Origin: a virus
Reading direction: 5' to 3' (one strand)
IMG/VR virus record: IMGVR_UViG_3300047666_000499
Coordinates: 1-64,000 of that record
DNA length: 64,000 nt
Below are positions 27,349 through 64,000 of this stretch, piece by piece. Under the pieces are notes generated by a model. It saw only the letters and a list, made by a program, of their open reading frames with translations. It was not told the DNA's origin and searched no databases. The first letter of the stretch is position 1, and each line of letters opens with the position of its first letter. Position numbers and translations under genes: made by a program.

Positions 27349-27369
27349 TAAACCTATAATTATCAAACA

Positions 27370-27398
27370 GGTCACATTCTTCGGGGTGTGGCCTTTTT
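27370..27398 (+). terminator. intrinsic terminator
   Basis: AGGTCACA pairs with TGTGGCCT over eight positions (one G-T) around a loop containing TTCGGGG and is followed by five T. It closes the fibre unit from 26221. Confidence 0.85.
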
Positions 27399-37701: not shown

Positions 37702-37734
37702 AATAACACCATCCTTAATTGGGTGGTGTTTATT
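37702..37734 (+). terminator. terminator whose loop carries a promoter box
   Basis: AACACCATCC pairs with GGGTGGTGTT around TTAATT and is followed by a T-rich run. The CCTTA at the top of the left arm and loop is also the -33 box of the downstream promoter. Confidence 0.75.
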
Positions 37735-44504: not shown

Positions 44505-46541
44505 ATGCCAATTTTATATACTCCCAGCAGATTAAAGGCTTCCCGAATTGTCAAGAGACAGGACGGAGGTGTCATTCCAGTATACGGAACCTACCAAGTG
44601 CAACACGCGCAGCAAGCCCCTTATAACCCAGCTGGGTTGTTAGCGAAGTATCAAACCCCACAAGCTGCACCGGGCGCAAAAGCTGCACCTGAGCCAGCGG
44701 AGTGGAGGAATGAGAATGAGATTGAGGGCCTAATTGGTGACTCTTCTAACTACATGGCCGAGCTTGAGCAGATCGAGGGAACTATAAGACAAGGTTTGTC
44801 TCGTAACCCAGACTTCTTCAACACAGAGTACGGCGCGGCGATCAAGAGTAAGTATGACCATTGGACTACCCACGAGTTGCACACTCTCAAAAAGAATGAG
44901 GAGCTCTACAAGGATGCTGTTTCTTCTATGAAGGAGAACAAATCAGATGAGAACTGGGTGTACGACAACGGCAAGGGCTATGTGTACCGCTACGGCCAAG
45001 AAGGTAAGCTGGAAATTGAGGCTATGTCTCCATTGCAGCTGAAGGACGAGGTTGATGACGCGGGCAGACCAAAGTGGGAGCGACTTACTTACGGTGAATT
45101 GGCTAAATTTCGTAGTAACTACGACTCAGATTCCTTTATAAAGAACCCTTATTTGGCCCAACTAATCGGAGACGGTATTGGTATGGCCAAGGTTCGTAAG
45201 GACTATGTGGAAAACGCATTCAACAGTATTGGGTACAACGCCCAAGACAACACTATCGAGACCGGTGGTCAAGTCATAGATGGCGAGACTATCGAGAAAA
45301 TGATGAGAGGTGACGCTAGTAAATCTAACGAACGCCAGCTTATAAACGCGGTGAACAGTCTTAAACGAGAAATAAAACACACACCAGCTTGGAACACTTT
45401 AGAGTCTGAAGCTTGGCAAGATCCGTCGGTGAACACAGCTGAGGATGCTTCAAAGTGGATCGATAATTACTTCTTAGATGTTATGTATTCTAAGCTTATC
45501 GGTGAGGAGTCTTACAAGCGCGCGGACATTTTGGATCGTGATGCTATTGACCCTTTAACTGGGGAGGGAGGGCCAGCCATAAAGCTAAAGGAACTAAGCG
45601 AGTACAACTTTGCCCCGTTGGGTATAGGTACAGAAGTCGATTTCAAACTTGAAGCATGGCTAGGTAAAGTAAATGGACAGTACAAGACTTCTACACAAAA
45701 GATTAAAGCTGTGGAAGCCAAGTATGTTTCTTCAGATATAAACGCGGCTATCAAGAAGGAGGACAAATCTAAGTTCCACGATGACCACCAAGTTAAGTTC
45801 AAGTCTTTCAACAAGCTCGGGTCGAGTCTGGGGAAACTGGCTGTGATGTCGGAGGCTCAACTTGCTTCTGGTAAAAAACTGAGTGAAACAACGATTGCGT
45901 TCGAGAAGACCAGTGTACCAGCTGATGAGGCCATGGTAGTTTTCGAGGGTTCAGCTCATGTTGTTACAGCCTATGTTAACAAAGGGAATGGCGAGATTGT
46001 GCAATTGAAAGATCAGGACAAGTACAACAAGGAGGTAGAAAAACTCACAGGGCAATACAACAGCGGTTCAACATACCAAGAGTTTGCCGTAAAAGACAGC
46101 GATGTCGCGGAGCAAAAGTATATAGCTCTTGCCAACGCAATCTGGGACAAGCACTACGGTGACTTAGCAGAGAAGATCGAGAAGAGGCAGTTTTACACAG
46201 TCGAGGCAGTATTCCCTGCTATGAACTCTGAGAAAGATTATGTTTCCAGTTCGTCTTATCTAAACAACTTGCCTAAGCAAACGGTTTCCTTGGGCCAGCA
46301 GAACTCTTACTACTACAGTGATCAGTTCAAATCCAACATGGATTTCGATTTAAGTTTCAATAGAACAAACATATTTATACCAGTGGATCATGCTATGTAC
46401 GCACAGGCCGCCGGAGCCAACGTTTACACTCAGGACGAAAATGTTAGAGATGTGAATATTATCAAAAACCTACAAGGTGCATCTAGTGTGGCAACACGAG
46501 CGGAACTGCAACAAGCAATTAACAAAAACTTTACACAATAG
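44505..46541 (+). CDS. internal virion protein preceding the giant cargo genes
   Basis: The 678-residue protein has the N-terminal motif VKRQDGGVIPV (about 16-26) and a Pro/Ala-rich stretch (about 40-70). The rest is a largely alpha/beta charged body with helices about 75-160 and 235-320 and strand-rich parts after 360. It ends two bases before the 3404-residue gene, so the two are likely made together. No enzyme motif is seen. It is probably part of the ejected protein set. Confidence 0.55.
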   Translation: MPILYTPSRLKASRIVKRQDGGVIPVYGTYQVQHAQQAPYNPAGLLAKYQTPQAAPGAKAAPEPAEWRNENEIEGLIGDSSNYMAELEQIEGTIRQGLSRNPDFFNTEYGAAIKSKYDHWTTHELHTLKKNEELYKDAVSSMKENKSDENWVYDNGKGYVYRYGQEGKLEIEAMSPLQLKDEVDDAGRPKWERLTYGELAKFRSNYDSDSFIKNPYLAQLIGDGIGMAKVRKDYVENAFNSIGYNAQDNTIETGGQVIDGETIEKMMRGDASKSNERQLINAVNSLKREIKHTPAWNTLESEAWQDPSVNTAEDASKWIDNYFLDVMYSKLIGEESYKRADILDRDAIDPLTGEGGPAIKLKELSEYNFAPLGIGTEVDFKLEAWLGKVNGQYKTSTQKIKAVEAKYVSSDINAAIKKEDKSKFHDDHQVKFKSFNKLGSSLGKLAVMSEAQLASGKKLSETTIAFEKTSVPADEAMVVFEGSAHVVTAYVNKGNGEIVQLKDQDKYNKEVEKLTGQYNSGSTYQEFAVKDSDVAEQKYIALANAIWDKHYGDLAEKIEKRQFYTVEAVFPAMNSEKDYVSSSSYLNNLPKQTVSLGQQNSYYYSDQFKSNMDFDLSFNRTNIFIPVDHAMYAQAAGANVYTQDENVRDVNIIKNLQGASSVATRAELQQAINKNFTQ

Positions 46542-46543
46542 TA

Positions 46544-49500
46544 ATGGCCGAAACAACTACAACTAAGGAGAGACCATTGTATGGTTCAGACCCAGACGCA
46601 ACAAACGTTGACTGGTTCAAAGCTCGTAAAGACGGAACAATCCAAGGTTCGGATTACAAGGACATTTTCACTCAGATGGGTGGACAAAAAACTGAACTTA
46701 AGACGTCTGCGGAATACTGGAATGACACTGGTCTTCGTACACAGTATGAAGAGCAGTATGGTGACAAGGCCAAAGAAGTCTTTGACAAGGAGTACACTGT
46801 TACGGCTGCTGACTTTCAGCAGTTCAACCAGTTTGATCACGGTATAAAGCAGTTTGCTACAAACCAAAGGAGACAATCGGCTAACGTAGTAGGAGGAGAA
46901 TCTTGGGGTTACGATCCTGAGAATTTGAAGACTATGAGTCCTTCATTTGAAGAGCGTTATATGCGTTCAGACGGTGCTATGGATCAGGGTCTTGGTATGT
47001 CCGAGGCTGACAGAGATCCGAGAGAACTAGCTATGGAGTCCAGAAAGTTTCAGTCTTACGATGGTTCTATTCGTGACATGCCTACTTGGGATGAAGTTCA
47101 CGCCCAGTCAAACGGTACCGATTACGCGGAGGATTACCTTTCTTGGGGAGACTCATGGGGTAACAATGCCATGGCGTTCAATAATAATTACACAGACGAC
47201 AAAGGAAACCACATCACAGGATTTGGTTATCCACCGGAAATGCTCCAAGGAGACTACCGTGGGCCTCGTTACATCAAGGCTTTGTACGAAGGAGGTTACA
47301 GAGATTCTTTAGACTACGAAATAGTTAGTAAGTTTGATTATGCTGGTTTCACCAGTATGGATCGTAATGCAGGTTGGACATCTTTTGTTCCTCGTGTATT
47401 GGCTAACGGTATTACAAACATGTACAAAGGTGTTGGTACTCTAGCGGCAGCAGGATCTGCTATGTTAGGATGGAACGACTCAAAAGAATGGGTTGAAGAT
47501 CACTGGTTGATGGGGGCTAATTCAGCCAAAGTTTCTGAGTACCTTAGTACACAGGAGAACGGTCTAGCGTCTTGGGATGGGGCTATGGGGTTCGTCGGAG
47601 ACACACTTATGCAATTATTTGTGGGTGCTGGTATCGGTAAGGCCGGTGCAGCTAGTTCCACAGTGTTAGGTGCTGGTGTTAAGATGTCCGGCAAAGTAGG
47701 TAAATACTCATCTTTGATGGCTATGACAGCATACGGGGCGGCTGATTCTTATGACAGTGCTCTAAGAGCGGGTTATACAGACAAGCAAGCTGGTGTATTC
47801 TACATGACCAATATGGCGGCATTATTCGCTGTGAACAAACGATTTAACGTGTTGGAGGACGCTTTTGCGACTAACAAGATGATGAAAGAGTCTAGCAAGC
47901 TATGGACTAAAAATATGGCATACGCTGCCCCGGCCCTTAAGAAGGCTGTTGCTGCTGGGGACGATAAAGCGGCTCAGACCATCATGAAAACGTATACACA
48001 AAAGATGTATAACGGCCTTTCAAAAGTGGCTACAAAAATTAAGAAATTAGAGGGATACCCTAAAGCTATGCTTACTGAAGCGGCTGAAGAGATTGCAGAA
48101 ACAGTATCACAGAAGACTTTAGAACAGGCTTTCAACGCTACAACTGCAATGGGTATCACAGACGGTAACTTCAAGTCTATGTACGATGAAGGCTACTGGG
48201 AAGAATATGGGCAGGAGTTGTTACTATCTGCTGCTGGTGGTGCTCTAGGTGGGGCATTCGCTAAGACGTTCTACCACAAAAGAGATGACGGCAAGAAGCG
48301 TGAGTTCCTTGACATGGTGATGGATGATGACGGGTCTATGTTAGACCAGTTGGATGAGTTACACAAATCAGGGGCTTTAGGTTCTTTCGTTGATTCCACT
48401 GAGTGGGACGCTGATGAAAAGAGATACAAAACTATGGTAGAGGCAGGCGAAACCGCTATGTCTATGGCTGACGCTAACAAGCAAGTTTTACAACAAGAGT
48501 ACGCTTACGTAAAGGGTATTGTTGACACATTAGGGTCAAAAGATGCTGTGAAAAACATGACTGAGAAGCACCCGGGATTAGCGAGTGCTATCAACAACAT
48601 GCAAGTAGTAAACGACGTCAAAGCGCTTACGAAGCAATACACCGACTTGCACGGGGAACATGAGAACATGGCCACAGAAGCTATACCTAGAACTCCGGAA
48701 GATATGGAGGAAGGTAGTGAGGAAGAGGCTAAGTTCATCAAGAAGGAATCAGATAACTCTGGTTTAACTCCTGAAGTTACTAAGCAAGTAGCAGATATAA
48801 AGGCCAAGATTGACGACATATCATCTGGTAAATCTGCGGAGAAATACTTCATGAAAGCCGCTGCCCGTGGCACTTTGTTTGACACAGAGAGCGACTTGGG
48901 TCGTGCTTACGCGGAATACGGTGACGATTTCTTACACGAGCTGATGAAGGTGAGTGGGGAATCATCTGTTGATGTAGAAGAGAAATCAAAGAAGAACCTT
49001 GAGAGAATAGGGGAAAGCGGTAAAGTGCTTGCTTCTTTGGAGAAGGATCTCAGCAACATCGACGAAGTAGCCGACAAGCTTATGTCTGGTGATCGTATGT
49101 ACATCTCAGACCAAGTAAAAGAGAAAATAGAGAAGTTGTACGAGGAACAAAAGGTCCCAAACGACAAGCTCTCGGAGCTTCAAAAGAAGATACAGGAGCA
49201 AGTGGTTGCTGATGGTAAGTATGAACTGTCTACGATCGTTAGCTCAGAGGAGTTTAAGGCTCTACGTAAGACCAACCCCGAGAAGGCAGACAAATACGCA
49301 GCATTCCTATCGTCGTTCTTGAAGACCAAGTTCGATGAGAAGCTTAACGCGGTTAAGACTATGGATGATATCCGTAACCTTGACTTTGAGTCTAACATAT
49401 CTTTGGAGGACATCTTATATACAATACAAGAGCAAGAATTCGATTTCTCCTTGGAATCAATGACAGGTGGGGAACAAGACATCCACGGTCACTTTGATGC

Positions 49501-52500
49501 TAAGACAGAGGAAGAATTAGTAGTTATAGGTGAAAAACTAGGGAAGATCTTCGCTCAAAACGAGGATGCTTACAAGTTTGATATCGGGTCGGAGTCTTTC
49601 TCTAACCTTACAACTTCTGAATTTAGCGAGCATGTTGCAGATCTAATGAAGAACTTCAACAAACTTTCTGAGCTGTATGACCTGTCTAAGAATGCACCTA
49701 CTGAAGAGGAAGTGGCATTTGACAGAACAAAGGCTGATTTCTTGTTGAACGGGTTTGCCCAAGACGAGCATGCTGGCCTTATGGACAGTGGTAATCTAGG
49801 GAACCAGATGGCTGCTATACTCTATCAAATCGAGAAACAAAAGCTTAGTGATGATGACGACTTTGGTACGTACAACAATTCAGATGAGCCTGAGAACATT
49901 CTTAAGCAAGCTGAGGCCCGTGCCAAACAAATTGACATGCTGTTGTTCGCCTTAAGAGTGGACAATAAAGACGGTGGTGTTTCTTACAACCCTCTAGTAG
50001 AGCAATCAGGAGCAGCAGATATCGCTGCTCTTAGAGTAAGACAAGAACGTATTAATTCAAAACCGAAAGCGAAATCGAGGGACATTATTCTTGGTGCTGT
50101 TACTGCGGCCGAAACATCTGGAACACATTCTGAGTTCTTTAACAAAATGGGGTTAAACCCGGTTATGTGGAGAGACTTGAATTCTCGTAAAGATGAGTTG
50201 AGCGCAGAAGAGGTGGAAATGCACAAGGAGTACAGTGACACCTTGGGTAACGTTATTGAAGCTAAAGTTGCTCTAGAAGGTATCGTAACAGACGCTAAGA
50301 AAGCGATCAGCATTGCGAAACACAACCAAGATTCAAAGAACATTGTTAACAACCAACGTGAGGCTATATCTGCGAACATCAAGCATGAAGCTGACATCTT
50401 GGACAAAGTTATCAACCACGCTGATATGGAGGATGTAGAGGAATTAGAATTCTTCCACACTCACAACTTCAACGATAGTTCAGATGCTGGTGTGGTGAAA
50501 TCTTTCAACGTCCTATTGGACGCTAAGAGGCTCATATACTCAGCTTTAAAAGATAAAGACGACAAAATAGAAGAGATATTAGACGCCCTGTTTGCTAACC
50601 TGAATGGTATTGCGAACGGCCGCCGTGTAGCTAATGATGTTTCCAGAGCGGCAACTATGCTTACTTTTGACGAGGCATCATTCTACGCTAGATACAAATC
50701 AATATTAGCTGACTTCGACCTAGGTGGTTCACCTACAGTGGAGCAGGAACAAGTTGGTTTGTCTATCATGTCTCACATGATGGGTAACGGATCCAACGTT
50801 GTGAACGACGTGCTGGGAGCGAATGTTACTAACACAGTGGTTATCAATGGCCGTCAAGGTACGGGTAAATCAACATTCGCCTTAGGGGTGGGTGTGGCTA
50901 GTGGTCAGGCCGAACAAATCGAAAAGTTCGGCGAGGACAAGTCTCGAGTTCTGCTTTCAGCAAACACACCGAAGCAAGTTTCCACGTTAGTGAAGACAGC
51001 CGAGAAGTTTGGTATCAACATAAAGAGATTTGGGACTGCAAACGGGTTAACTTCTGTTAGGGAGTCTGACTCTTCTATGCAGAGACCACTGGATCTTATA
51101 CAGAAACTAGAGGAGAATAAAGACATTGATGATGTGAGTACAATCGTATTCGATGAGGCATCATTTATACAATATGAAGGCTCTGAGCCATCTGACTTGA
51201 AACGTATCATGGATGCGATCAGTAAGATAAACAAGGGCAGAGACGGTATCAACACGCCTAAAATGAGCCTAGTGCTTATGGGGGACAGCGGGCAAAACGG
51301 CCACCGTGATGCAGATGGGGCTGTTAGTAACATCTTCGTGGAAGATCGTGTATACGGACCGAGAGAATTAACTTTGAGCCATAGAGCCAAGGTTTTGGCT
51401 ATTACAGACGCTACTGCGCAGATTGAGAAGGACAGACGTAATTTGAAGATCAAGACGGAGTGGGGGACAGCTGATGAGGTTTCCAAGGGTCTCTTGGCGG
51501 GTGTACGAGTTAGACCGACTTCGGACAACGTGTTTGATGACAACGATTTGGTTAGCAACATTCGCCAGCAAATCGAAGAAAGAATAGGGTTACCTAACAC
51601 AGATCCTTTTGAGGTGGGTGTTATATTGCCAGCTGGTGAGGTTATGCCAACAGGTAGTTTGATGGAAGTGCTAAGAGTACAATACCCAGATAACTTCCGT
51701 GTGACTGACCACGTTGACGTACAAGGTGATGAGTTCGACTATGTTATCGCAAGAATGACAGCCAACGAGATTGGTGAGAGCGCAGAACAGTACGGGGCTA
51801 AACAGCACCTTATGGTAGCTGCTGCTAACAAACTGTCCACAACTATAGGTCGTGGGAGATACTTTATTACACTTATCAACGACACACAGCGTCCTCTATC
51901 TAGCGATGGCCCTACGAAGATAACAATCGTGGAGTCAGCTATGAACGAGATCGTAGCGGCACAGGTGCTTGAACTTAAGATGGAAATGTTAGGTTTGGAA
52001 GCTAAGCCAGTTGACAAAGAGGTGTTAGAGAAGACTGATAAAGAATTAGAACGTAAAGCCCGCGTTGACCAAGACGAGGTTGACGAGGTTGCCAAGCGTG
52101 TTGAAGAAGACAAAGACAGAAACATTATCCTTAAAGAGGAAGAAGGTGACGCCGTGAATATCGAAAACGTTCGAGTGGCCGGTTTGTACGAGCTGTTGCT
52201 GTTCAACCACAAGGACAAAGTGCATGAGTTTCAAACGGCAGAAGAGCAATCTGAGTACATAAACCGTATGGCTCCTGTGGACAACCCAGAGCAGGCAAAA
52301 GGGATCAACGAATTAGCTGATGCAAAATTGGCATTGTTAGATTCTCAGGATTACGCTACTTTGGTTGCGGCCACTATGAAGTATGAGGACTCTGATAATG
52401 CGGAATTTAACGATGACGTCATCAGCTCTGTTCAGCAGACTATAGACACCCACTTTGAGGGTGTTCCAGTGGGGACAGACATTACTGAAGCTGGTGAAGA

Positions 52501-55500
52501 GGTGTTCAACTTAAAACGAATTTATGATTCTGTTTCTAAGAAAATAAACACAGATTCTGTTGTTCAGGATATCAACATTGCTACCCCGGAACAACAAGAG
52601 AGTCTGGACAAGGCTGTGCTGAATAAGGCGGCCGAAACAGTTGCGCACCTACAAGACAGTGTTGAGCTTACAAGCAAAGATGTCACTGACCTGAAGGAGC
52701 AAGCTACAATTATAGCTAACAAAATTGAGAGCAAAGAGGCTACCAAGGAAGACCTTATCGATCTTATGGAGCAGATAGCTCTATTAGAGTCTGGTGAGAT
52801 AATGGATGCCGCTGAAGATAAAGACGACGTTACGCCGGATCACAACCCTGTATTTGCTGAGTCAATGGCTAGCAAGAATAAGGTTGCACCAGAAAACGAA
52901 ACATGGGAACAAAGAAGAACACGTACAAATAAGGAACGTGAGATGGCAGTTCAAATTTTGGAAACTGCTGGTTACCTCATGGCTTACCCTAACAACGATG
53001 GTAACTTCGAAGGCAAGAAGGGCTACGAGTTAGAGAAAGCAAATGTGGCTCGATTATTCCCGGGAGAACCTACTCCTACTACCAAGGAAGCTTACGACCT
53101 TGAGCAACTTAGAGCGTTAGACCTTAAGAACGGCTATAGCGTGGGTGACTACGATTACTCTTTGGTTGCTACGAAACGAGGTTCGTTTGTGGAAATGCTG
53201 GTTACTGCTAAGAACCGAAAAACGAAAGAGCGTGAGCGTGTTGTTGTGGGTGGTGTTTACTACATACAATTACTACGTGACAACGGTAGAGCGGGTGGAG
53301 ACATGCTGGCACAATTGGAAAACGCTATCAGCCAAACAGCTGTGAATCGTATTGATCTTGCCATAGATGACCCGAGAATTTTGTTGAACTTGAAGTCATT
53401 GTCACCGGGTTCTCTTACAGACAACAAGGCTAAAAAGGTTGTGTTGTCAGACTGGAGAAAAGAAGTAGATTTGGGTACCGCTAAGGTGTCAAAGAAAGTG
53501 TTCATCGATACTCGTAAGAATCTTGAGGATGGAACATTGAACCCGCACAGGGGAGATGCTTTCCTTTTGTATTCACACGATGACAAGATGCAATTCACTG
53601 AGAGAGATGTTAGAGAGATCTTGGCAACTGGTTTACCATTGCACGGAGATGCTGCCTTGTCAGGATTTAAGAGAGGGATCGGTATCCTTCACTTGGATAA
53701 CAAGCCTTCGTCTCTTACGCAGTTAGTTGACTTGTTCAACGACGAGGTTTTCAGCCGTGCTACAGAATTGTATAAAGTTGTCAACCCAAATAAGGGGCAG
53801 GATCGAATGGTTACTGCTATAGCGCAAATGCGTGAGGTTTTAGCTGGGGTGGAAGGTCTACCTATGCCGGGCAGAATGGCTAATTTCTTGGAGGGCAACA
53901 AAAAGTTAGAATACTCAAAAGAGTCTGACGGGGAAGACCCTTCTCCTTATGATGTTCTGTACGACGAGATAGCAGCTTTCAAAGAGCTCGAATCGAAAGA
54001 TCCTAAAGATCCTAGTAAGCCGGGGGCTTATCAGGCGTTTGTAGAGATCATAAAAACTATCACAGACGAGAGATCCTTGGGCCAGTTTGGTCGCACAGCG
54101 GATAACAACTTTTCGGTGAAGACAAATGAGACCACCGGTAAAGAGAGACCAGTAGCTGTTAATGATCGTGCTAATCCTATCACCCTATTAAACAGTAAAG
54201 ATCTAACAGACTCTGTAACAGAATTGCCAGAGGGGGCTGAGATTGAAGACACAATTCAGTTCAACATGGACAGCTTCATAGAGGTGATACAAAGTATTTC
54301 TAAATTCAATGGTATAAACCCAAAGTCTATCACTGCCCTTATGGACGGTATGTTGGGCAAATCCCAGCACTTCAAATCAGGTTTCTTTATGAGACCATTG
54401 ATTGCATCACGCACAGGATCACAGAGAGACTTCGCTACGTTGGAGCCAATCCCGGGGTTAGAAGACAACTTCCTTACCAATGTAATTGGTATTAAACCGC
54501 CAGTGATTCGCTTTGATATTGCGAGCATGAGTGGACTTATAGAGAACGGTAAAGCTCCAGCGGATGACACTCCTTTCAACCCGTTTGGGAACGAAAAGAG
54601 CACCGTTGTTTTAGCAGAAGAGATCACTAAGGAAATTAAGGACACTAGTGTTTTCACAGCTCCTTTTGTTGAGGCTAAGACTGAGGCGCAGGCCCGTAAA
54701 GCTTACGCGGAATTCAAGACAGCCTTTGCTAGACTTACAACTCTTGCTAGAGACGTGCGTGGATCAGAGGGTACTAAGGTCAAAAATGCCTTGAGTAACA
54801 TCAAGAAAATGACCGATTCTGCCTACAAGATTTCAAAGAAACGTATCAAGGAGTCTACTCCTGATCGTGTGGAGAACACAAAGGAATCATTACAGCTGAG
54901 TATCGCTGACCTAGTGAACAACGAAGCAAGCGTGATAGCAGAAATGGAAGTTATCAAGAAACAAGCTGCCAAGGACAAGAACTTCATGAAAGCACCAAAC
55001 GGCCAGCCTACCAAGTTGTCGGAAGAACAATGGTTGTACTCACGTACGAGCACCTTCAAAAACTGGGTTGGGGACTGGGATACTGCGGACGCCCGTGATA
55101 TCTCTACTCTTTTGGATGCAGAGACTAAGGAGCCTGTTGTTTTCTTCTACGGATCATTGAAAGGTGAGGAAGATCCATTCACTACCCAAGAGGAAGTTAT
55201 CTTCACAAACAACAAGGTGGTTGCAGACAGTCGTGTGAACGAGGGTGGCATATTGTACTCTATGTTTGTTAGAACTGAGGATTCTCAGTCTGTGAAGTAT
55301 GGTGAAATGGCAGAACCGTTCGAGGAAACTCAGGACAGCTGGCATACTGTACACCCGGACGGATCCTTGACTATCTCTGTGCCAACCTCTGATCAGCTTA
55401 GAGTTATGGAAGGTGATGATTATCTACGCGCAGAAACTAACCCAGACGAGAGCCCAGAGATGACCGAGCTTAAGAAGAGTTTAGCTGACTTGAGCAACAT

Positions 55501-56758
55501 GTTTGTTCAAAGAAGCCCATTCGTGTTCTCGCAAGTTGACCTAGATGATTTCCACTTACAACTGCAAACGCTGACGAAATCGGATGCTGCGGCTATCGTG
55601 GAGATTCTGGAAGCGGACTCAGATGACAAATTGGCTAGTGACAAGGTTATATCTAACCTTAAGGCTGCTATAGACGAGCTAGAGAAAAGAGTAGCTGCTC
55701 CGGCAGAAGAAATAGAGAAGGCTATAAAAGAGAATATGGCCCGAGAGTACAAAGAGAGTGATCTACCTACGTCTATCCCAGCTGTTTTGGCTACAGATAG
55801 CTTAAGCGGATTGCTAGTGAAATTCCATGTGGCAAAAGCTGGTGGTTCTGATGTAACACCGTACGAGCAAGAAATAGGAAGACGTTACCTTTCTGAGTCT
55901 AAATCTGACGTAACACAAGTGAAGGAGAGTTTAATCGCCACTCCTATTACTTCAAACGAAGATTACAAGGCCAGAGCGGAGCAACTGAGGGCTTTGAAGC
56001 TACCTACTAACGAGGCTGCAGAAGTAGCGCGTGAGCTAGTACAGTTGAGAAAAGAATCTAAGGAGTACGCTAAAATAGCATCTCTGGCTGCAGAGGCGGG
56101 ACTCACTATCGAGGATGTCAATGAGTTAAAAGATTCTGACTTCAAAACTTTGCTAACAGATTCGTTAAGTGAAGAGGGTGAGACTTTAGATGGTAGTTTA
56201 ACACCGGATGCCCAAAAAATTATCGATAGTACATGGAGCGACGTAGAAAATTTATTATCATTGCCATTAGATAATTCAGCGTCTATTGCCAAAGTAGCGG
56301 AGAGTTTAGAACAAACTTTAGCTGCGACGGATGCACGTATGAGTTTGATGAAACAGTTTATAACTGACAGTTTCAAGAAGCAAGTAATAGATACCAAATA
56401 CGACGAAATGAAGACACAAGTTTTAGAAAGAGTAGCAGAGGCACAAGCAGAAAACGCTGCCCAAGCTGCTAACGTTGACACCACAATTGCATCAAAGGAG
56501 AATCTTTTCCCTACGTTTGTGGACTCAACATTGAAAGTTGCATTAGACCCAGCGGTTGAAGAAGCTGTTAGAGGTTTGGAGGCATCAGAGATTTCTACTT
56601 GGGTTGAACTAGTTAACGGTATGTTGCTGGATCCTTCTACAGAATCAACAAAGGGTAAATTGTACTCTGCGTTACGTAAGAAGGTATCTCGTGATGCTTA
56701 CAAGACTGCGTTAGACTATATGACTAAGAAACAAAAAGATTCAATATGTAGAGGCTAG
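46544..56758 (+). CDS. giant virion-type protein with SF1 helicase and degenerate ADP-ribosyltransferase domain
   Basis: This is a 3404-residue protein. Residues about 345-385 and 559-578 hold Ala/Gly-rich hydrophobic segments that might touch membrane. Residues about 580-1400 are mainly helical. Residues about 1425-1800 are a complete SF1 helicase core: Walker A GRQGTGKST (1436-1444), Walker B VFDEAS (1535-1540), motif III VLMGDSGQ (1577-1584), a motif IV-like LSHRA (1611-1615), motif V VQGDEFDYVIA (1726-1736), and motif VI KLSTTIGRGR (1763-1772). Residues about 2825-2955 match the polyvalent-protein ART domain (FKNWVGDWD, EPVVFFYGS, VIFTNNK, TSDQL) but lack the usual catalytic His. It is two bases after the preceding gene and 27 bases before the RNA polymerase. 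Confidence 0.85.
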   Translation: MAETTTTKERPLYGSDPDATNVDWFKARKDGTIQGSDYKDIFTQMGGQKTELKTSAEYWNDTGLRTQYEEQYGDKAKEVFDKEYTVTAADFQQFNQFDHGIKQFATNQRRQSANVVGGESWGYDPENLKTMSPSFEERYMRSDGAMDQGLGMSEADRDPRELAMESRKFQSYDGSIRDMPTWDEVHAQSNGTDYAEDYLSWGDSWGNNAMAFNNNYTDDKGNHITGFGYPPEMLQGDYRGPRYIKALYEGGYRDSLDYEIVSKFDYAGFTSMDRNAGWTSFVPRVLANGITNMYKGVGTLAAAGSAMLGWNDSKEWVEDHWLMGANSAKVSEYLSTQENGLASWDGAMGFVGDTLMQLFVGAGIGKAGAASSTVLGAGVKMSGKVGKYSSLMAMTAYGAADSYDSALRAGYTDKQAGVFYMTNMAALFAVNKRFNVLEDAFATNKMMKESSKLWTKNMAYAAPALKKAVAAGDDKAAQTIMKTYTQKMYNGLSKVATKIKKLEGYPKAMLTEAAEEIAETVSQKTLEQAFNATTAMGITDGNFKSMYDEGYWEEYGQELLLSAAGGALGGAFAKTFYHKRDDGKKREFLDMVMDDDGSMLDQLDELHKSGALGSFVDSTEWDADEKRYKTMVEAGETAMSMADANKQVLQQEYAYVKGIVDTLGSKDAVKNMTEKHPGLASAINNMQVVNDVKALTKQYTDLHGEHENMATEAIPRTPEDMEEGSEEEAKFIKKESDNSGLTPEVTKQVADIKAKIDDISSGKSAEKYFMKAAARGTLFDTESDLGRAYAEYGDDFLHELMKVSGESSVDVEEKSKKNLERIGESGKVLASLEKDLSNIDEVADKLMSGDRMYISDQVKEKIEKLYEEQKVPNDKLSELQKKIQEQVVADGKYELSTIVSSEEFKALRKTNPEKADKYAAFLSSFLKTKFDEKLNAVKTMDDIRNLDFESNISLEDILYTIQEQEFDFSLESMTGGEQDIHGHFDAKTEEELVVIGEKLGKIFAQNEDAYKFDIGSESFSNLTTSEFSEHVADLMKNFNKLSELYDLSKNAPTEEEVAFDRTKADFLLNGFAQDEHAGLMDSGNLGNQMAAILYQIEKQKLSDDDDFGTYNNSDEPENILKQAEARAKQIDMLLFALRVDNKDGGVSYNPLVEQSGAADIAALRVRQERINSKPKAKSRDIILGAVTAAETSGTHSEFFNKMGLNPVMWRDLNSRKDELSAEEVEMHKEYSDTLGNVIEAKVALEGIVTDAKKAISIAKHNQDSKNIVNNQREAISANIKHEADILDKVINHADMEDVEELEFFHTHNFNDSSDAGVVKSFNVLLDAKRLIYSALKDKDDKIEEILDALFANLNGIANGRRVANDVSRAATMLTFDEASFYARYKSILADFDLGGSPTVEQEQVGLSIMSHMMGNGSNVVNDVLGANVTNTVVINGRQGTGKSTFALGVGVASGQAEQIEKFGEDKSRVLLSANTPKQVSTLVKTAEKFGINIKRFGTANGLTSVRESDSSMQRPLDLIQKLEENKDIDDVSTIVFDEASFIQYEGSEPSDLKRIMDAISKINKGRDGINTPKMSLVLMGDSGQNGHRDADGAVSNIFVEDRVYGPRELTLSHRAKVLAITDATAQIEKDRRNLKIKTEWGTADEVSKGLLAGVRVRPTSDNVFDDNDLVSNIRQQIEERIGLPNTDPFEVGVILPAGEVMPTGSLMEVLRVQYPDNFRVTDHVDVQGDEFDYVIARMTANEIGESAEQYGAKQHLMVAAANKLSTTIGRGRYFITLINDTQRPLSSDGPTKITIVESAMNEIVAAQVLELKMEMLGLEAKPVDKEVLEKTDKELERKARVDQDEVDEVAKRVEEDKDRNIILKEEEGDAVNIENVRVAGLYELLLFNHKDKVHEFQTAEEQSEYINRMAPVDNPEQAKGINELADAKLALLDSQDYATLVAATMKYEDSDNAEFNDDVISSVQQTIDTHFEGVPVGTDITEAGEEVFNLKRIYDSVSKKINTDSVVQDINIATPEQQESLDKAVLNKAAETVAHLQDSVELTSKDVTDLKEQATIIANKIESKEATKEDLIDLMEQIALLESGEIMDAAEDKDDVTPDHNPVFAESMASKNKVAPENETWEQRRTRTNKEREMAVQILETAGYLMAYPNNDGNFEGKKGYELEKANVARLFPGEPTPTTKEAYDLEQLRALDLKNGYSVGDYDYSLVATKRGSFVEMLVTAKNRKTKERERVVVGGVYYIQLLRDNGRAGGDMLAQLENAISQTAVNRIDLAIDDPRILLNLKSLSPGSLTDNKAKKVVLSDWRKEVDLGTAKVSKKVFIDTRKNLEDGTLNPHRGDAFLLYSHDDKMQFTERDVREILATGLPLHGDAALSGFKRGIGILHLDNKPSSLTQLVDLFNDEVFSRATELYKVVNPNKGQDRMVTAIAQMREVLAGVEGLPMPGRMANFLEGNKKLEYSKESDGEDPSPYDVLYDEIAAFKELESKDPKDPSKPGAYQAFVEIIKTITDERSLGQFGRTADNNFSVKTNETTGKERPVAVNDRANPITLLNSKDLTDSVTELPEGAEIEDTIQFNMDSFIEVIQSISKFNGINPKSITALMDGMLGKSQHFKSGFFMRPLIASRTGSQRDFATLEPIPGLEDNFLTNVIGIKPPVIRFDIASMSGLIENGKAPADDTPFNPFGNEKSTVVLAEEITKEIKDTSVFTAPFVEAKTEAQARKAYAEFKTAFARLTTLARDVRGSEGTKVKNALSNIKKMTDSAYKISKKRIKESTPDRVENTKESLQLSIADLVNNEASVIAEMEVIKKQAAKDKNFMKAPNGQPTKLSEEQWLYSRTSTFKNWVGDWDTADARDISTLLDAETKEPVVFFYGSLKGEEDPFTTQEEVIFTNNKVVADSRVNEGGILYSMFVRTEDSQSVKYGEMAEPFEETQDSWHTVHPDGSLTISVPTSDQLRVMEGDDYLRAETNPDESPEMTELKKSLADLSNMFVQRSPFVFSQVDLDDFHLQLQTLTKSDAAAIVEILEADSDDKLASDKVISNLKAAIDELEKRVAAPAEEIEKAIKENMAREYKESDLPTSIPAVLATDSLSGLLVKFHVAKAGGSDVTPYEQEIGRRYLSESKSDVTQVKESLIATPITSNEDYKARAEQLRALKLPTNEAAEVARELVQLRKESKEYAKIASLAAEAGLTIEDVNELKDSDFKTLLTDSLSEEGETLDGSLTPDAQKIIDSTWSDVENLLSLPLDNSASIAKVAESLEQTLAATDARMSLMKQFITDSFKKQVIDTKYDEMKTQVLERVAEAQAENAAQAANVDTTIASKENLFPTFVDSTLKVALDPAVEEAVRGLEASEISTWVELVNGMLLDPSTESTKGKLYSALRKKVSRDAYKTALDYMTKKQKDSICRG

Positions 56759-56785
56759 CGATTAGCTTCTACTTAAATTTTTATT
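56748..56785 (+). terminator. hairpin overlapping the stop codon, terminator- or attenuator-like
   Basis: GTAGAGGCTA (56748-56757) pairs with TAGCTTCTAC (56763-56772) over ten positions with one G-T, around GCGAT. An AT-rich run with TTTTT follows. The TAG stop lies at the top of the stem. Confidence 0.6.
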
Positions 56786-59700
56786 ATGGCGATTAAATGT
56801 TCTCTAGAGCCTGCTTTGGCAAGTGCTCTTATCAATGACTACCTATACTTCAATCCTAAGCCACAAAGCTTACCGACATTTTACAAAGATATTGCAAAGA
56901 TTCTCTTCGACGCCGAGGGGGATCTTCGTAGTGTTGTAGGCGACTATAAGGTTGGTGACGAAACTTCCAACTTTGGTTCTTACTTGCGCCGCCTTTCGGG
57001 TGTGGTAAAAGGGCAGATCGCAGTGCTCGGATCAGAATTTGAGCGTGGTGAATCTGACTACGATACTGTTGATGTTAACGCTTACACGTTGGCCGATAAT
57101 ATAGGACGCTCAGTGATGGATAAGATCGCTAGAGAGGACGACTCGCTTATATCTGAGGATATCGCTGAATTAGCACAAGAGGAAAAGGCTCCGGTCCCAG
57201 ATCCTATTGAGGCTGTTGAAGTTGTATCTTCACAAAGAGAACACGCTATTAGCTTCGGAAAATCCACTGCTGAATTTTACGACTTCGTTGCTAGTTACAA
57301 AAAGACTAGGCTGCAGAAGGACGACCTAGATTTTGAAACATTCGCGGATACTTACTTTGGTGGGGATCTTATTACATTGTTTGATGACTTCAAGGCTCAC
57401 TTCTTGAACAACTTCTCTGATGCACTTATCGACACCAGAGTTGTGAACGGTCAGGCCCGAGGTTACAATGACAATATTATCTCTGTACTGGAGAACCTTA
57501 AGCTAGCTGTTGAGGACGCAGTGGATGAGGATCTATTAGAGTCTACAGAAGCATCTAGCCTATTGGATACAAATCCAGCAACACGTAGAGCTTACTTTAA
57601 CAAGGTCATCGCAAACAACTTTGATAACGTTGTTAAATTATACTTGGATGGTGTGAACATTGGTGAAGGATTAGACAAAGCTACTTTAGACATCGCTGAG
57701 GGCCGTAAGGGTTTCACTGATTTCGATGGTGGGCACAGTGGTTTGGCTACTGAGTCTGATGCTATGAAAATGTTAATCTACACTACTCCGCGTCTTACAA
57801 AGGATGAGCACGGTAACATTGTTCAGGATGACAACAAACCTACTTTGGGTGACCACGAGGTTAAAGCCGTGGCTAACGTATTGAACTCTTTCCCCAGAAC
57901 TGCGGAAGGATTCAGAGACAAATTAGAGAACAGAATGAACTCAAAGGATATCAATGCTGATATCTACCGTTCTTTACACCACCGTTTCTTCTCAGACGAG
58001 AATTACACAGTTGATGGTGTAACACGTAAATCTGTTTACGCTATATTCCGGGATAACAACGACAAGAACGCCAACAACATGGTGTCTTTGTTAATGACAT
58101 CTTTTCACTCACAACAACACCTTAGTTACATCATCGCTAAAAACGGTAACGTAACAAGAACGAACCCAGCTACGGATCAGTTATCTTCTTCTTTAAAGGA
58201 GGACTTCACTAGGCGCATCTCGGACGTTCATAACAAATCTGAATTAGATCCTACAATAGCAGACAAAATATCTGTGGAAGACGTAGATGGTGTGCCACAC
58301 ATCAAGATAGCTAATGGTAAAGGGCAATTCGTATCTTTCGGGTTTGAAGTTTTATCTACTAAGAAATCTGATGGTATCCCAGTACGTATTGATGAAGAAG
58401 GGTTTAAAGAATACTCTAACGAGACTAAGGCTCTTAATGCTTTGCACATTTTAGGTTTCCCGCCTTCGTTAACTAGTAACTTTATCAAGCACTACAAGCA
58501 GCACATTGGTGCTTATGCGGCTCAGAGTACTATCGGAACGGAAAGAGACTTATCTCTACCTAATATGATCGCGAACATGGCATACATGATCGCTATGAAC
58601 AAGCCGGAAGCTCTCGAAAAGATGGTTGACATGAAAGTGGCCCTTCCAAAGGAACACAAGTCAACAGAAGAAAGCACATTAGCTTTTCCACCTATGGATT
58701 CTGCCCATAGATTTGTAGCTCCTATAAAGGAGTTCATCGCTATTGCAGAAGGCGCGGGTGTGAAGAAAAAGCACATGGATAACAACGGTAACTTCGTGAG
58801 TAACATCGGAGTTAAAGCACGTATCCACGACACAGAAAATAATATCTCAGATATAAGAGACAGATTGAGCAACGGTGAGACCACTGTTCATGCACGAAAC
58901 GTCTTGGTTAGCGAGAAATATGATATCCTAGGCACCAGTTACAAGGATGGTTTTGAAATTATGGGTAACGTACGTAGCAATAGCTCTATGTCGAAGGCGG
59001 AGCAATACCGTTACATCATCGAGGACTTATACGTTAAGATCGGTGCCCAAGAAGGATTTAAGGTGGCTAACTTCCAGTCGGCAGTTATGTCGGATCGTAG
59101 TCGTGTTGAGACAATGATCACACGTAAGAATCAAGGTGAATACTTAGACCCGCACAAATTAGATACTGCTCGTTCTAGTATGATCGAAGCACAAAAGGAT
59201 TTCCATAACGATTTGGCTTCGGCTATAACAACTTCATGGGTTACTCAGTTACAAGAGTGGTCTAAGAAAGGGAATAGCTTTGCTACATGGAACGGTGCTG
59301 AAGTTGATGCTATCTCCACGATCGAAGAGCTTAACACGCACCTTGCGAAGTACCCTGTACCAATTGCTGCTGCTAAAGCTGGTAGACACTTGGCTAACAG
59401 AGTGATGTATGTTGCGGACGAAAACAAGAATGCTAAGATCAAGGATGTGTTCATGTACATGCGTGATACTTTCAATGACCCGAACAGAGCCGATAAGTTC
59501 GTTCAGGATCAGTTGAGAAAGTTCAGAAACCAACTTAAGAAAGAGGGTTACACTCCTAAGACTATGAGTGATGACGTTACAAAGATCCTTAGAAACCGTT
59601 TTGGTCAGTCTAAGAACTACAAGATTTACGACATGATGTTGGAATCATTCTTTTTTGAGTCTAACATCATTGCCAATGCTGCAACATCTCTTTCTATGGG

Positions 59701-62700
59701 ATCTCTGTACCAGTTCAAAGGGGATATGGATCACACAAAAGAGATGGATTTCGCTACGGATCTTGTTCAAAGATTTGCAGAGCGTAATGATGAGCAGTTA
59801 ACTACAGACCAAGTAAGAGAACGTGCTACCGTGAAAGCTAAAGAGATAGCTTCTGGCCGTGCTTTGAACTCTATGTTTGTTGATCAAGCCAAGCGTAATG
59901 CTGGTTTAGGTTCAGGATTCCACCACCCTCGTTTGTTCTCAAGCTTTGAGACAGGCACAGGTCTAGATGAATTCACGAACACAGCTGTTATCGATGACCC
60001 GGAAATAGCGGTTGACATCTTAGGTACACTAGGACAAAATGGACAAGAGGTATACGATGCCGCTCAGTTCGCTCACCCTTTGTACTTCTTGAAACTGAAT
60101 AACTCATTGGGTAACGAAATGTCTCAGTACATGACCCAAGGTGGAGCAGTGAAAGATATTTCTAACGAGCTTGATCCTGTTACAGGTGTTCTTCGTTTCC
60201 AAAAGAAAGCGACGTTCAACCAGTTCTCTACAGAGATGCTGACTAAAGGTACGCCAGAGTTGGCGCGTTTGTTCCGTAAAATGAACTCTTCTATCACATT
60301 CAAGGGGGAGATCACTTACAAGGGAGAGACTATACCGGTTAAGAATTTACAAGAATTATGGGAGCACTTTGGTGCTACTAAAGAATCTCACCCTAACAGA
60401 ATAGGTGAGGATAAATATGCTAACGCTTGGGAGAGTGTTCTAGAAGTTCTAGGGCAAAACCCGGAGAACCGTTCAGCTTACATCGAGAAAGTAGGTTTTA
60501 CTTCTGGTGAAAAGACTGGGTCTCGTGCGTTAAACAAGACTGATGTTTGGTCTACGGACGGTGCGCCATTGAAATACACTAAGTTCTCTAACGAGCAACA
60601 CGGTGTAATTTTGAACGCGGATCACGATCCAGATTCTACACACACAGAACACGGTGAGAAGTCTTTGATGACTCAAGCTATTTCTGCAGCGGTATTCCAA
60701 GGTGAAAGCTTCGGTATAGCTGAGAACATAAACGATGCACTTCTGTCTTTATCAGAAGCGTCCCTAGATCGTATTAAGACTGAGATTGACGAGAAAGCAG
60801 TTGATTTGCTGAGAAAGATGGCGAATACCAACCACCCTACTTTAAAGGGCCAAGGTCTAGCTGTGCAAGCTCTTACAAACAACTCTGACCGTTCAGATGC
60901 TGAGGAGCAACAAGTTCAATCCTTGATCATAGAGACAGGCTTGGATAAGACGGCCATGAAGGAGTACGCTCTGGATTTGACTAAAGATGCTTTGGTTAGT
61001 AAAGACACGTTCAACATTGTTAGTAAAATCGCCAACCACCAAGAGTACGATGGTATGGACACTATGCAATTGCAGAATGAAGTACACAGGGCAGTTATGG
61101 CTCACTTGAACCGCGAAACTGTTCGTATCAAGTTCAAGGGCCAAGAGTTCGTAGTTTCTACTGCGCATGACTTTGCTAAATTATACGAATTACCTAATGG
61201 TAACGTGGTATCCCGTGATGACTTCATGAAGTCCACGCAAGTTAAATTTGATGAGATCACTAACACAGATGATCTTAAGGCCACTACAGATTACGATATC
61301 ATTGAATTCAATGGTGTTGAGATGCAACTGTGGGAGGCAATCGCTATGAAAGGTGACCGCAAGTCGGTTATGGATGGTAACACAGTGGGTATCAAAAGAT
61401 TACCAGCTAAAGACAAACAGCGTAACCTTAAATGGTTGGGTTACAACGGGGTTAGTCCTACAACAGGAGAGCCTGTTAAATTGACAGACACTAGTGAATT
61501 CAAGGATCTTAAAGCTAACGGTAAAGAGTTGGCCAATCGTGAAACCACTACAGAGAGACAAAAAGAATTATTGGCCGACAGAGTTCCTTTGGAATTAGCT
61601 TTCAAAGAACTGATGAACAATACAGCGTACCAGTGGGAAACCGAGGATGCTGAGTTCTACATGCCGCAAACACACATGGCTGCCTTCAACTTGGATATAA
61701 ACTCCAATATCAGCGAGATCATGGGTGACTTGCTTACTGGTGAACAGATTTCTGTTGACGGTGGAGAGGTTGTTTATGAGTCGCAATTAGCAAGCATGAG
61801 AGCTTACTTTGAGGATCAGATTTATGATGTAATAGATACTAAGAAAGAATACAGGGACATCTTCAACTTCACCAAGTCTTACGATGAATTGACTATCGGC
61901 GGGTTAGATAAGATCTCGAGAGCTGCGGCTAGAAAATTGTCAAGCATTGATCCAAACAGCGAGTTAGCTTCCACTCTGGAAGATGAGTTAGAACACGTTA
62001 AGCAGATCATGGCGGAAGCTTTACAAGGGGCTGAAGTAACAGAGGACAACTCGAACGGCAACTTGGATAACAATCTTTTGGATAAGTTCAATACTTTCCG
62101 TGAGAGCAACCGCAAAATGTTTGTTGAGGATTTGGCAAACAGACAAGCTAAGAGTTTCCCGAAAACATTGAAGATACTTGCCGCTCGTATCCCGGGTACA
62201 GGTAAGCAGTCTTATGTTGCTGGTAAAGTGAAGGGCTTTATTACTAGCCAACGTAACGGAATCTGGGGGCCAGCAGAGATGCTGACTATTACAGGGGCGG
62301 ATCATGATATTGATAAGGCTCACGTACTTGTTTACTCTGTGGATTCGGAGGGTGTTGTTTACTCTTACGACAGCTACTTAGATGCTTCTGGTAAAATCTC
62401 TAGAGAGGTATACGGGAAGAACCTAGCAAACAAAATTGAAATTCACAAGAAGCGTCTATCTGAAGCTGGTAAATCACCACGCCAAGTAGATTCTATTATC
62501 AGTGAGTTCCGTAAGAACGAGAACCTTAAATTCAAAGAGGCAATCAAGAACTATATTATCGACGGCCTACGTACAACATCTTTAGATCCTAGAAACGCAG
62601 TAGAATCTGCAACACCGGTATCTTTGGAGAAATTGAAGAAGGCTATCAAGACTATTGAAAAAGAAGAGAAGAGTGAAGAACAAGACGAGGACGGTAGTGT

Positions 62701-64000
62701 TATTACAGGTGGGCAATTCATGTCACCCTTTAATCCAGCTTCGATTCCTAACTTGGAGATCATTAACGCTGTTGGTAAGCAAGCAGTAGGTGTGTACGCT
62801 ACAGGTCTGAAAGGATACGCAGCGATCTACACTGCCTCACTGAAAGACATGACCAGCGAGCATATCAAATTCCCTGACTTCACGCGAGGATTGTTTGCTT
62901 CAGACGACAAAGCTGCCGTTGGCATCGCCCAAGATCTGTTCAAAAAATTCTACGGTAGAGATTCAGAGGGTAACGCTATTTCTAACAACACGTTGAACTT
63001 GTTCGTTACAGATGGTAAGGGTGTAAAAGAACGCCACCACCGTAGCTTGATTGCGAACACAGATAAATGGGCTGAAGGAGTAAACCCAGATGATCCTAAA
63101 TTCAAGGAGCAAGCGCAAGCATGGGCGGATATTTCAGAGCTTACCAATGCTGCGACCGATAACGCCAAAGAGTTGATCTTGGGACGTATTGGAGCGGATG
63201 GTAACACGAACGGTCTTATTGCAGCTGCTGTAACCGCAGGGTTTGATTTAACACATGTGTTGGCTCTTTTACAAGATCCAGATGTTAAAGATGTGTTGAA
63301 AGCAGTTGAGAGAGGTTCAGATACAGTGAACACTCAGCCTGAGCTTCCATTGAAGTTTGCTATCAACGACCACATGAGAAGAAAATTCGGATGGTTCAAC
63401 AAAGGGTTTTACTCTTCTGTTAAGTCTCTACAGGGCACTATAAAAGCCTTAGAGGGAACTAGACCAGACGCGTTCAAATCAGCGGAAATAGCGATATTAG
63501 ATATCGGTACTACAAACATAGAGGATTTAAAGATACTTGCGGGTGGTGCGTATTCAACTAACGATTACGACCTAGCTACAACAAACGTTGAGAGTTCAAC
63601 ACCAACTGACTTGGAGTTAAGCACTCTTCAGAGATTGGCAGCGGCTTCAGGCACTGACTTCAATACTTTAAACAAATCGAAAGCTACAGCTATGTTGCGT
63701 TCGTTCACGGATAGTAAGACTCTTATTATACCAACGGACCAAAACTTAAGCTCAGTAAATATTAGATTGGCTGCGGCTTATGCTGCGTCTACGAAGAAGG
63801 AATTATTCCAAATTCAGCCAGATGGTTCTTGGAGTAAGTTCGATGGGGACATGTTTATGCCCTCTAAGAACACACCTTTGTTCACTAAGAGCACTGCTAT
63901 ATTCACGAACTCTAAGCTGTCGGCTCCGGCCCGCGCTAGCATCAAGAGAGCAATCTCTGAAACTAAGATGGCTATCGCTAACCCAGCGGAGTACAACAAG
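56786..64000 (+). CDS. giant virion DNA-dependent RNA polymerase, open at the window end
   Basis: This reading frame runs 2405 codons without a stop and continues beyond the window. Residues about 1801-1850 hold the hallmark of two-barrel RNA polymerases: RIPGTGKQS (1801-1809), then GADHDIDKAHV, where D1839, D1841 and D1843 form the DxDxD metal-binding loop. A later segment, TDNAKELILGRIGADG (2124-2139), matches a conserved part of crAss-like polymerases. Phage phi14:2 uses a related single-chain enzyme carried in the virion and injected to transcribe early genes. The protein is made from ATG 56786 (MAIKCSLEPALA), 27 bases after the helicase giant and in the same reading frame, separated by TAG and TAA. 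Confidence 0.88.
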   Translation, partial: MAIKCSLEPALASALINDYLYFNPKPQSLPTFYKDIAKILFDAEGDLRSVVGDYKVGDETSNFGSYLRRLSGVVKGQIAVLGSEFERGESDYDTVDVNAYTLADNIGRSVMDKIAREDDSLISEDIAELAQEEKAPVPDPIEAVEVVSSQREHAISFGKSTAEFYDFVASYKKTRLQKDDLDFETFADTYFGGDLITLFDDFKAHFLNNFSDALIDTRVVNGQARGYNDNIISVLENLKLAVEDAVDEDLLESTEASSLLDTNPATRRAYFNKVIANNFDNVVKLYLDGVNIGEGLDKATLDIAEGRKGFTDFDGGHSGLATESDAMKMLIYTTPRLTKDEHGNIVQDDNKPTLGDHEVKAVANVLNSFPRTAEGFRDKLENRMNSKDINADIYRSLHHRFFSDENYTVDGVTRKSVYAIFRDNNDKNANNMVSLLMTSFHSQQHLSYIIAKNGNVTRTNPATDQLSSSLKEDFTRRISDVHNKSELDPTIADKISVEDVDGVPHIKIANGKGQFVSFGFEVLSTKKSDGIPVRIDEEGFKEYSNETKALNALHILGFPPSLTSNFIKHYKQHIGAYAAQSTIGTERDLSLPNMIANMAYMIAMNKPEALEKMVDMKVALPKEHKSTEESTLAFPPMDSAHRFVAPIKEFIAIAEGAGVKKKHMDNNGNFVSNIGVKARIHDTENNISDIRDRLSNGETTVHARNVLVSEKYDILGTSYKDGFEIMGNVRSNSSMSKAEQYRYIIEDLYVKIGAQEGFKVANFQSAVMSDRSRVETMITRKNQGEYLDPHKLDTARSSMIEAQKDFHNDLASAITTSWVTQLQEWSKKGNSFATWNGAEVDAISTIEELNTHLAKYPVPIAAAKAGRHLANRVMYVADENKNAKIKDVFMYMRDTFNDPNRADKFVQDQLRKFRNQLKKEGYTPKTMSDDVTKILRNRFGQSKNYKIYDMMLESFFFESNIIANAATSLSMGSLYQFKGDMDHTKEMDFATDLVQRFAERNDEQLTTDQVRERATVKAKEIASGRALNSMFVDQAKRNAGLGSGFHHPRLFSSFETGTGLDEFTNTAVIDDPEIAVDILGTLGQNGQEVYDAAQFAHPLYFLKLNNSLGNEMSQYMTQGGAVKDISNELDPVTGVLRFQKKATFNQFSTEMLTKGTPELARLFRKMNSSITFKGEITYKGETIPVKNLQELWEHFGATKESHPNRIGEDKYANAWESVLEVLGQNPENRSAYIEKVGFTSGEKTGSRALNKTDVWSTDGAPLKYTKFSNEQHGVILNADHDPDSTHTEHGEKSLMTQAISAAVFQGESFGIAENINDALLSLSEASLDRIKTEIDEKAVDLLRKMANTNHPTLKGQGLAVQALTNNSDRSDAEEQQVQSLIIETGLDKTAMKEYALDLTKDALVSKDTFNIVSKIANHQEYDGMDTMQLQNEVHRAVMAHLNRETVRIKFKGQEFVVSTAHDFAKLYELPNGNVVSRDDFMKSTQVKFDEITNTDDLKATTDYDIIEFNGVEMQLWEAIAMKGDRKSVMDGNTVGIKRLPAKDKQRNLKWLGYNGVSPTTGEPVKLTDTSEFKDLKANGKELANRETTTERQKELLADRVPLELAFKELMNNTAYQWETEDAEFYMPQTHMAAFNLDINSNISEIMGDLLTGEQISVDGGEVVYESQLASMRAYFEDQIYDVIDTKKEYRDIFNFTKSYDELTIGGLDKISRAAARKLSSIDPNSELASTLEDELEHVKQIMAEALQGAEVTEDNSNGNLDNNLLDKFNTFRESNRKMFVEDLANRQAKSFPKTLKILAARIPGTGKQSYVAGKVKGFITSQRNGIWGPAEMLTITGADHDIDKAHVLVYSVDSEGVVYSYDSYLDASGKISREVYGKNLANKIEIHKKRLSEAGKSPRQVDSIISEFRKNENLKFKEAIKNYIIDGLRTTSLDPRNAVESATPVSLEKLKKAIKTIEKEEKSEEQDEDGSVITGGQFMSPFNPASIPNLEIINAVGKQAVGVYATGLKGYAAIYTASLKDMTSEHIKFPDFTRGLFASDDKAAVGIAQDLFKKFYGRDSEGNAISNNTLNLFVTDGKGVKERHHRSLIANTDKWAEGVNPDDPKFKEQAQAWADISELTNAATDNAKELILGRIGADGNTNGLIAAAVTAGFDLTHVLALLQDPDVKDVLKAVERGSDTVNTQPELPLKFAINDHMRRKFGWFNKGFYSSVKSLQGTIKALEGTRPDAFKSAEIAILDIGTTNIEDLKILAGGAYSTNDYDLATTNVESSTPTDLELSTLQRLAAASGTDFNTLNKSKATAMLRSFTDSKTLIIPTDQNLSSVNIRLAAAYAASTKKELFQIQPDGSWSKFDGDMFMPSKNTPLFTKSTAIFTNSKLSAPARASIKRAISETKMAIANPAEYNK

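Follow-up and report, generated by a model that had tools for sequence, protein, structure and literature searches.

The window analysed here is a stretch of 64,000 bases of the IMG/VR virus record IMGVR_UViG_3300047666_000499, the full length of which is 67,492 bases. It contains a crass-like structural block with TerL, a GroES-like protein, the portal and the MCP, followed by tail genes and then, in this order, by two cargo-type genes (encoding 998 and 678 aa), the gene for a giant protein of 3404 aa and an RNA polymerase (RNAP) gene. The window TerL, portal and MCP matched PHROG families 6681, 6547 and 11589, respectively, and the gene order was consistent with Crassvirales; as judged from its sequence, the phage is crAss-like. 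The features of the locus are listed below, with the motifs of the relative G008 in brackets.

41393-44389, + strand: 998-aa protein, first putative ejection/cargo gene (C1 slot), conserved in the clade
44505-46541, + strand: 678-aa protein, second putative cargo gene (C2 slot)
46544-56758, + strand: 3404-aa giant with the predicted helicase core, ATG start, in the slot of phi14:2 gp67 / crAss001 gp47
50732-51865, + strand: predicted SF1 helicase core of the giant, residues 1397-1774, from the Q motif to motif VI
Residue 1397: Q-motif-like PTVEQEQ
50849-50875, + strand: motif I, Walker A, GRQGTGKST, residues 1436-1444 (GVQGSGKSS)
Residue 1470: motif Ia, LLSANTPKQ
51143-51166, + strand: motif II, Walker B, IVFDEASF, residues 1534-1541 (IVFDEATY)
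51275-51301, + strand: motif III, LMGDSGQNG, residues 1578-1586 (FTGDPSQNG)
Residue 1609: motif IV-like LTLSHRAK
51701-51748, + strand: motif V, VTDHVDVQGDEFDYVI, residues 1720-1735 (LTTHNSVQGQEFDYVI)
51839-51865, + strand: motif VI, TTIGRGRYF, residues 1766-1774, with the arginine finger (TTIGRARYF)
56748-56772, + strand: terminator-like hairpin of 11 pairs, then a T-tract, covering the giant's stop codon and the 27-base gap
56786-64000, + strand, continuing to at least position 67492 of the record: giant virion-type RNA polymerase, at least 3569 aa
62300-62314, + strand: catalytic DxDxD motif of the RNAP, DHDID, residues 1839-1843

Both cargo-type genes have homologues in relatives of the phage. 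The 998-aa protein was homologous to L065:2102-4336 (E 4e-37) and L064:9097-10323 (E 6e-16), which occupy an equivalent location in two relatives, and the 678-aa protein to L064:6896-8986 (E 3e-22) and L065:1-1968. No sequence match was found between these window genes and crAss001 gp45/gp46, and the labels C1 and C2 are therefore positional.

A previous sequence-only reading of this DNA had described a 3404-residue protein with the core motifs of an SF1 helicase, and the ORF at 46544-56758 bears this out: motifs Q to VI lie in the correct order within residues 1397-1774, the catalytic K, D and E of Walker A and B are intact, and the SF1-type motifs III (GDxxQ), V (QGxEFDxVI) and VI (arginine) follow one another at 1578, 1720 and 1766. 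Searches with the whole giant passed no Pfam, PHROG or PDB threshold (Pfam DEAD, with E 0.009, stayed below its cut-off), a failure largely attributable to the length and divergence of the protein. The isolated 470-aa core gave 26.3 bits with Pfam AAA_30 (E 7e-6; cut-off 27) and 22.6 bits with the SLFN-g3 helicase (E 7e-5; cut-off 24), and the core of G008 independently scored E 1.8e-4 with the SLFN-g3 helicase. A PDB search by sequence gave nothing usable, and tblastn against 50,697 phage records returned no match for the giant even at E 0.01 and chance matches only for the helicase core (E up to 10). When the giant was searched against Pfam in segments, one recognised domain only was obtained across its 3404 aa. 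The zincin HExxH motif known from some crassvirus giants was absent from both window giants, and a resemblance by eye to an ART/MuF-type C-terminal domain near residue 2790 was dropped, as Pfam found nothing there.

Relatives of the giant were sought in IMG/VR, at the level of protein, alignment and DNA pattern, and in one scan of a genome collection. TerL recruited 38 IMG/VR contigs, most of them short and stopping before the giant gene, and the sole relative of the giant found by these scans was G008 (80.5 kb), reached via TerL. G008 has a matching gene order and, in the equivalent slot, a helicase giant 29-31% identical to that of the window, which aligned to residues 21-1857 (E 1e-137) and has kept motifs I, II, III, V and VI. 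The 100-residue block that contains motifs V and VI (residues 1701-1800) was 44% identical, more than any other block of this length. The giant of this relative also has a second P-loop C-terminal to the helicase (GHPGLGKTTF, then FLVVSD; L064 reverse strand, residues 2000-2100), which is absent from the window giant and gave no Pfam match.

We then compared, profile to profile, the window lineage (two sequences) with crassvirus Dda-like SF1B helicases, represented by nine sequences: six from crAss-like/Flavobacterium phages, one from Aeromonas phage Aeh1 and the domains of cr118_1 and cr50_1 described below. The match was significant (E 9.5e-9, prob 95.7), with an alignment that spans motifs Q to III only, plus a weak, detached segment at motif V, and ten column shuffles and a reversed profile used as controls gave prob ≤0.8. 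An AlphaFold model of the core built from two sequences was of low confidence (pLDDT 46, pTM 0.38; a second model was worse, with pLDDT 36), but its order of secondary-structure elements fits the two RecA-like domains of a helicase and its Foldseek list was headed by SF1/SF2 helicases, Upf1, Dna2, SLFN11 and RecD2 among them, PDB matches that we weighted as consistency only. The sub-threshold whole-protein searches and the poor models would also suit a degenerate remnant or an unrelated P-loop domain devoid of helicase activity. We consider this very improbable: the motifs specific to SF1 (III, V and VI) follow one another correctly and have been retained in a relative only about 30% identical, the profile matches SF1B helicases, and the Foldseek list, even from a weak model, is led by helicases. 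The core of the giant is predicted to be an SF1 helicase whose catalytic residues, both for ATPase and for coupling, are intact; it has diverged further than the crassvirus Dda-like helicase and is apparently active.

The gene downstream of the giant begins after a gap of 27 bases (between the ORFs ending at 56758 and starting at 56786), just as had been stated, and its ORF is open at the window end and runs on without a stop through the remainder of the 67,492-base record. Its identification as a virion-type RNA polymerase also held: hhalign against a profile of six crassvirus RNAPs gave E 2.4e-8 and prob 95.3 at residues 1792-2212, where TGADHDIDKA aligns with the TGSDFDIDK of those six RNAPs, and RIP..GKQS is present as well. 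Significant alignment began at residue 1789, with none N-terminal to it, and the second double-psi beta-barrel was not found by sequence. By tblastn, the window part of this protein matched five records only: RNAP genes of crassviruses, and relatives that were unannotated or carried another name. The predicted product of the gene beside the helicase giant is a crassvirus-type RNAP.

Between the two genes lies the terminator-like hairpin (fold z -2.6). Only three such strong hairpins occur on the + strand of the 64 kb, at 56748-56772, 37705-37730 and 27369-27394, and all are located at gene ends; mononucleotide-shuffled controls yielded 0-1, and a looser consensus scan of the window gave no excess over shuffles. 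Since this hairpin separates the giant from the RNAP, the two may not be co-transcribed at equal levels, and the RNAP is probably expressed by read-through or from a promoter of its own. That both genes sit in a single cargo-gene unit is consequently uncertain.

The slot itself points to the fate of the giant. In phi14:2, with an equivalent gene order, every protein of the block was annotated from MS/MS of virions, and virions of crAss001 contained gp45, gp46, gp47, gp49 and gp50 (PMC10172136). Like the window giant, phi14:2 gp67 and crAss001 gp47 are encoded by a giant gene placed after two C1/C2-type genes, both are virion proteins by MS, and the gp67 gene is, in addition, directly upstream of the RNAP gene. 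They differ from the 3404-aa helicase-bearing protein in size (1797 aa for gp67, 2341 aa for gp47), in that no helicase was found in either, and in strand, as crAss001 gp47 is on the strand opposite its RNAP genes whereas the window giant and RNAP are both on the + strand. Nor is there significant sequence similarity between them: comparisons of the giant N-terminus with gp47/gp67 proteins gave z mostly about 0-2, at best 4 (G008 vs cr8_1). Glycine-rich hydrophobic segments were suggestive of homology, which we do not claim given these low z-scores. We thus infer from position that the giant is packed into the virion, as are gp67 and gp47. Alternatively, the giant would be an unpackaged late intracellular protein (serving, for example, replication, recombination or packaging) that neighbours the RNAP merely through the late block. 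The record ends, at 67,492 bases, before any replication module, and other crassviruses and the relative G021 encode an SF1B helicase separately, in crassviruses as a replication-block gene, which leaves room for such a role; but in two cultured crassviruses the protein encoded in this slot belongs to the virion, and the separate helicase of G021 is of the Dda type, another lineage than that of the window. We regard an unpackaged giant as improbable.

Crassvirus RNAP neighbourhoods were scanned in 16 catalogued crassviruses or related records, two of which were fragmented by an alternative code. Among the 14 readable neighbourhoods, a helicase was present within a cargo or RNAP giant in cr118_1 and cr50_1 only, both Suoliviridae. 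The RNAP giant of cr118_1 (MT774379; 4946 aa, L006:10503-25343) carries a C-terminal SF1B helicase in a single open frame, with the domain at residues 4432-4912 (AAA_30, 94.6 bits; RecD2, E 4e-34), and that of cr50_1 (NC_055868; 4774 aa, L007:10668-24992) a C-terminal RecD2/Dda-like SF1B helicase, again in a single open frame. GenBank annotates these fusions merely as 'DNA helicase' or 'exonuclease V'; neither genome yielded another such helicase and, although both domains also entered our Dda-like profile, Pfam detects them independently. No helicase was found in the cargo or RNAP giants of the sister genera cr114 and cr10. Other crassviruses had an SF1B helicase as a separate gene, several of them beside a uracil-DNA glycosylase, or went without one. 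The comparison of polymerase neighbours that the sequence-only reading had called for thus returned helicases fused to the RNAP in two genomes and none in the other readable neighbourhoods, indicating that the association is sporadic and no standing part of the crassvirus RNAP. As most crassviruses, cr114 and cr10 included, have no helicase in these giants, their RNAPs do not generally need one.

The fusions resemble the window in tying a crassvirus RNAP to an SF1 helicase within the block of virion genes, but there the helicase is fused C-terminally to the RNAP and is clearly a Dda/RecD2 SF1B helicase, whereas in the window it is inside a separate upstream giant and more divergent. The relative G021 encodes a separate 473-aa Dda-type helicase, which scored E 0.05 with the window-lineage profile vs E 1e-64 with the Dda profile. 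The window core gave no NCBIfam RecD2 or Dda match (E 4e-34 with RecD2 in the case of cr118_1) and is not a Dda/RecD2-like member over its whole core; the predicted window helicase belongs to an SF1 lineage other than the crassvirus Dda/RecD2 type. That helicases of two SF1 lineages are joined to the crassvirus RNAP/cargo block, in at least two architectures, supports a functional link, although the sister genera cr114 and cr10 have none there. The pair had been put forward as lacking any known description, which applies in part: the public genomes of cr118_1 and cr50_1 already show a helicase linked to the crassvirus virion RNAP, and the phiKZ virion is a further precedent (PMC13282480). New in the sources searched are the host protein, a cargo giant lying upstream, and the lineage of the helicase, predicted not to be Dda-like. 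The literature covered, which was partial, yielded no text on an RNAP fused to a helicase in a crassvirus, and we do not claim that none exists.

Known systems offer some guidance as to what a packaged helicase might do. The phiKZ virion is reported to hold a multisubunit-type vRNAP and a predicted helicase (PMC13282480), as the window virion may hold a polymerase and a helicase; phiKZ differs in belonging to an unrelated phage group and in that the proteins come from separate genes, and the accessible part of that source gives no function for its helicase. The N4 vRNAP (Schitoviridae), like the window RNAP a giant single-chain polymerase of virion type, is ejected and involved in genome entry (PMC4496689, PMC12633501) and requires host gyrase and SSB for promoter opening (PMC4496689). 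It is, in contrast, a T7-type single-subunit enzyme that relies on those host proteins, and no helicase partner is mentioned in the accessible portions of these two papers. An opener carried by the phage would therefore supply what at least one virion RNAP is known to require. The helicases of cr118_1 and cr50_1, being in the RNAP polypeptide, provide independent support for a link between helicase and polymerase.

We tentatively favour a model, which we rate at slightly below an even chance, in which giant and RNAP are ejected together and the helicase of the giant travels on the incoming DNA, permitting early transcription. The giant would be loaded into the capsid and, judging from its position, enter the cell along with the RNAP. 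The later steps are weaker: inside the cell the helicase might spend ATP to travel along the entering genome, the DNA that it opened or cleared might allow the virion RNAP to start early transcription, and it could possibly aid in drawing the DNA in. Counting against this model are the hairpin between the two genes, the purely positional nature of the slot argument, the lack of a helicase in the cargo or RNAP giants of most crassviruses and the low confidence of the structure models. In the main rival, which we find possible though rather unlikely, giant and RNAP are likewise ejected together, but the helicase acts for the incoming genome apart from transcription, pulling the DNA in or stripping or outrunning host nucleases and restriction enzymes. 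The helicases of injected phage and conjugative polyvalent proteins have been proposed to act on entering DNA (PMC5512222), the window helicase is on a polypeptide separate from the RNAP with a terminator-like hairpin splitting the two genes, and most crassvirus RNAPs manage without a helicase, all of which would agree with such a role; against it, the giant showed no recognisable nuclease, methylase or other domain linked to conflict, and in cr118_1 and cr50_1 the helicase is within the RNAP chain itself. The polyvalent proteins are, like the window giant, large and encoded among virion genes, some have helicase domains and they are thought to be delivered with the DNA, but their helicases are mainly of the SWI2/SNF2 type with methylase partners (PMC5512222), whereas the giant has one recognisable domain. 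Polyvalent status was accordingly rejected for the giant, as several conflict-related enzymatic domains are required and one was recognised in 3404 aa.

Ejection with the RNAP in support of early transcription, our favoured model, touches on two open questions, namely by what means virion RNAPs achieve promoter opening on linear DNA as it comes in, and what drives the later part of genome entry in crassviruses. A motor that travels on or opens DNA may reach the cell alongside the polymerase and, if this is true, a polymerase-borne helicase would be a direct and testable answer to both, and the poorly understood giant cargo proteins would be shown able to carry enzymes. The RNAP-helicase fusions of cr118_1 and cr50_1, single-chain proteins of catalogued gut phages, are suited to testing the idea. 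More broadly, crassvirus-like phages might have tied an SF1 helicase to the virion RNAP more than once, giving an ejected helicase-polymerase machine for promoter opening or DNA entry without host factors, a generalization that we advance as a speculative one, with the chances leaning against it.

Some further features of the window were recorded. The structural block includes an ORF of 1854 aa (window 16984-22548) without a PHROG match. A Shine-Dalgarno-like sequence was found upstream of 2 of the 27 window ORFs; scarcity of Shine-Dalgarno sequences is usual in Bacteroidota and their phages. The GroES-like gene lies at 3600-4193, in the interval between TerL and the portal (Cpn10, E 7e-12), and the relative G021 encodes a GroEL-like chaperonin (L069:4211-5785, - strand; Cpn60, E 1e-45), so that the window phage and G021 may carry a chaperonin system of their own.
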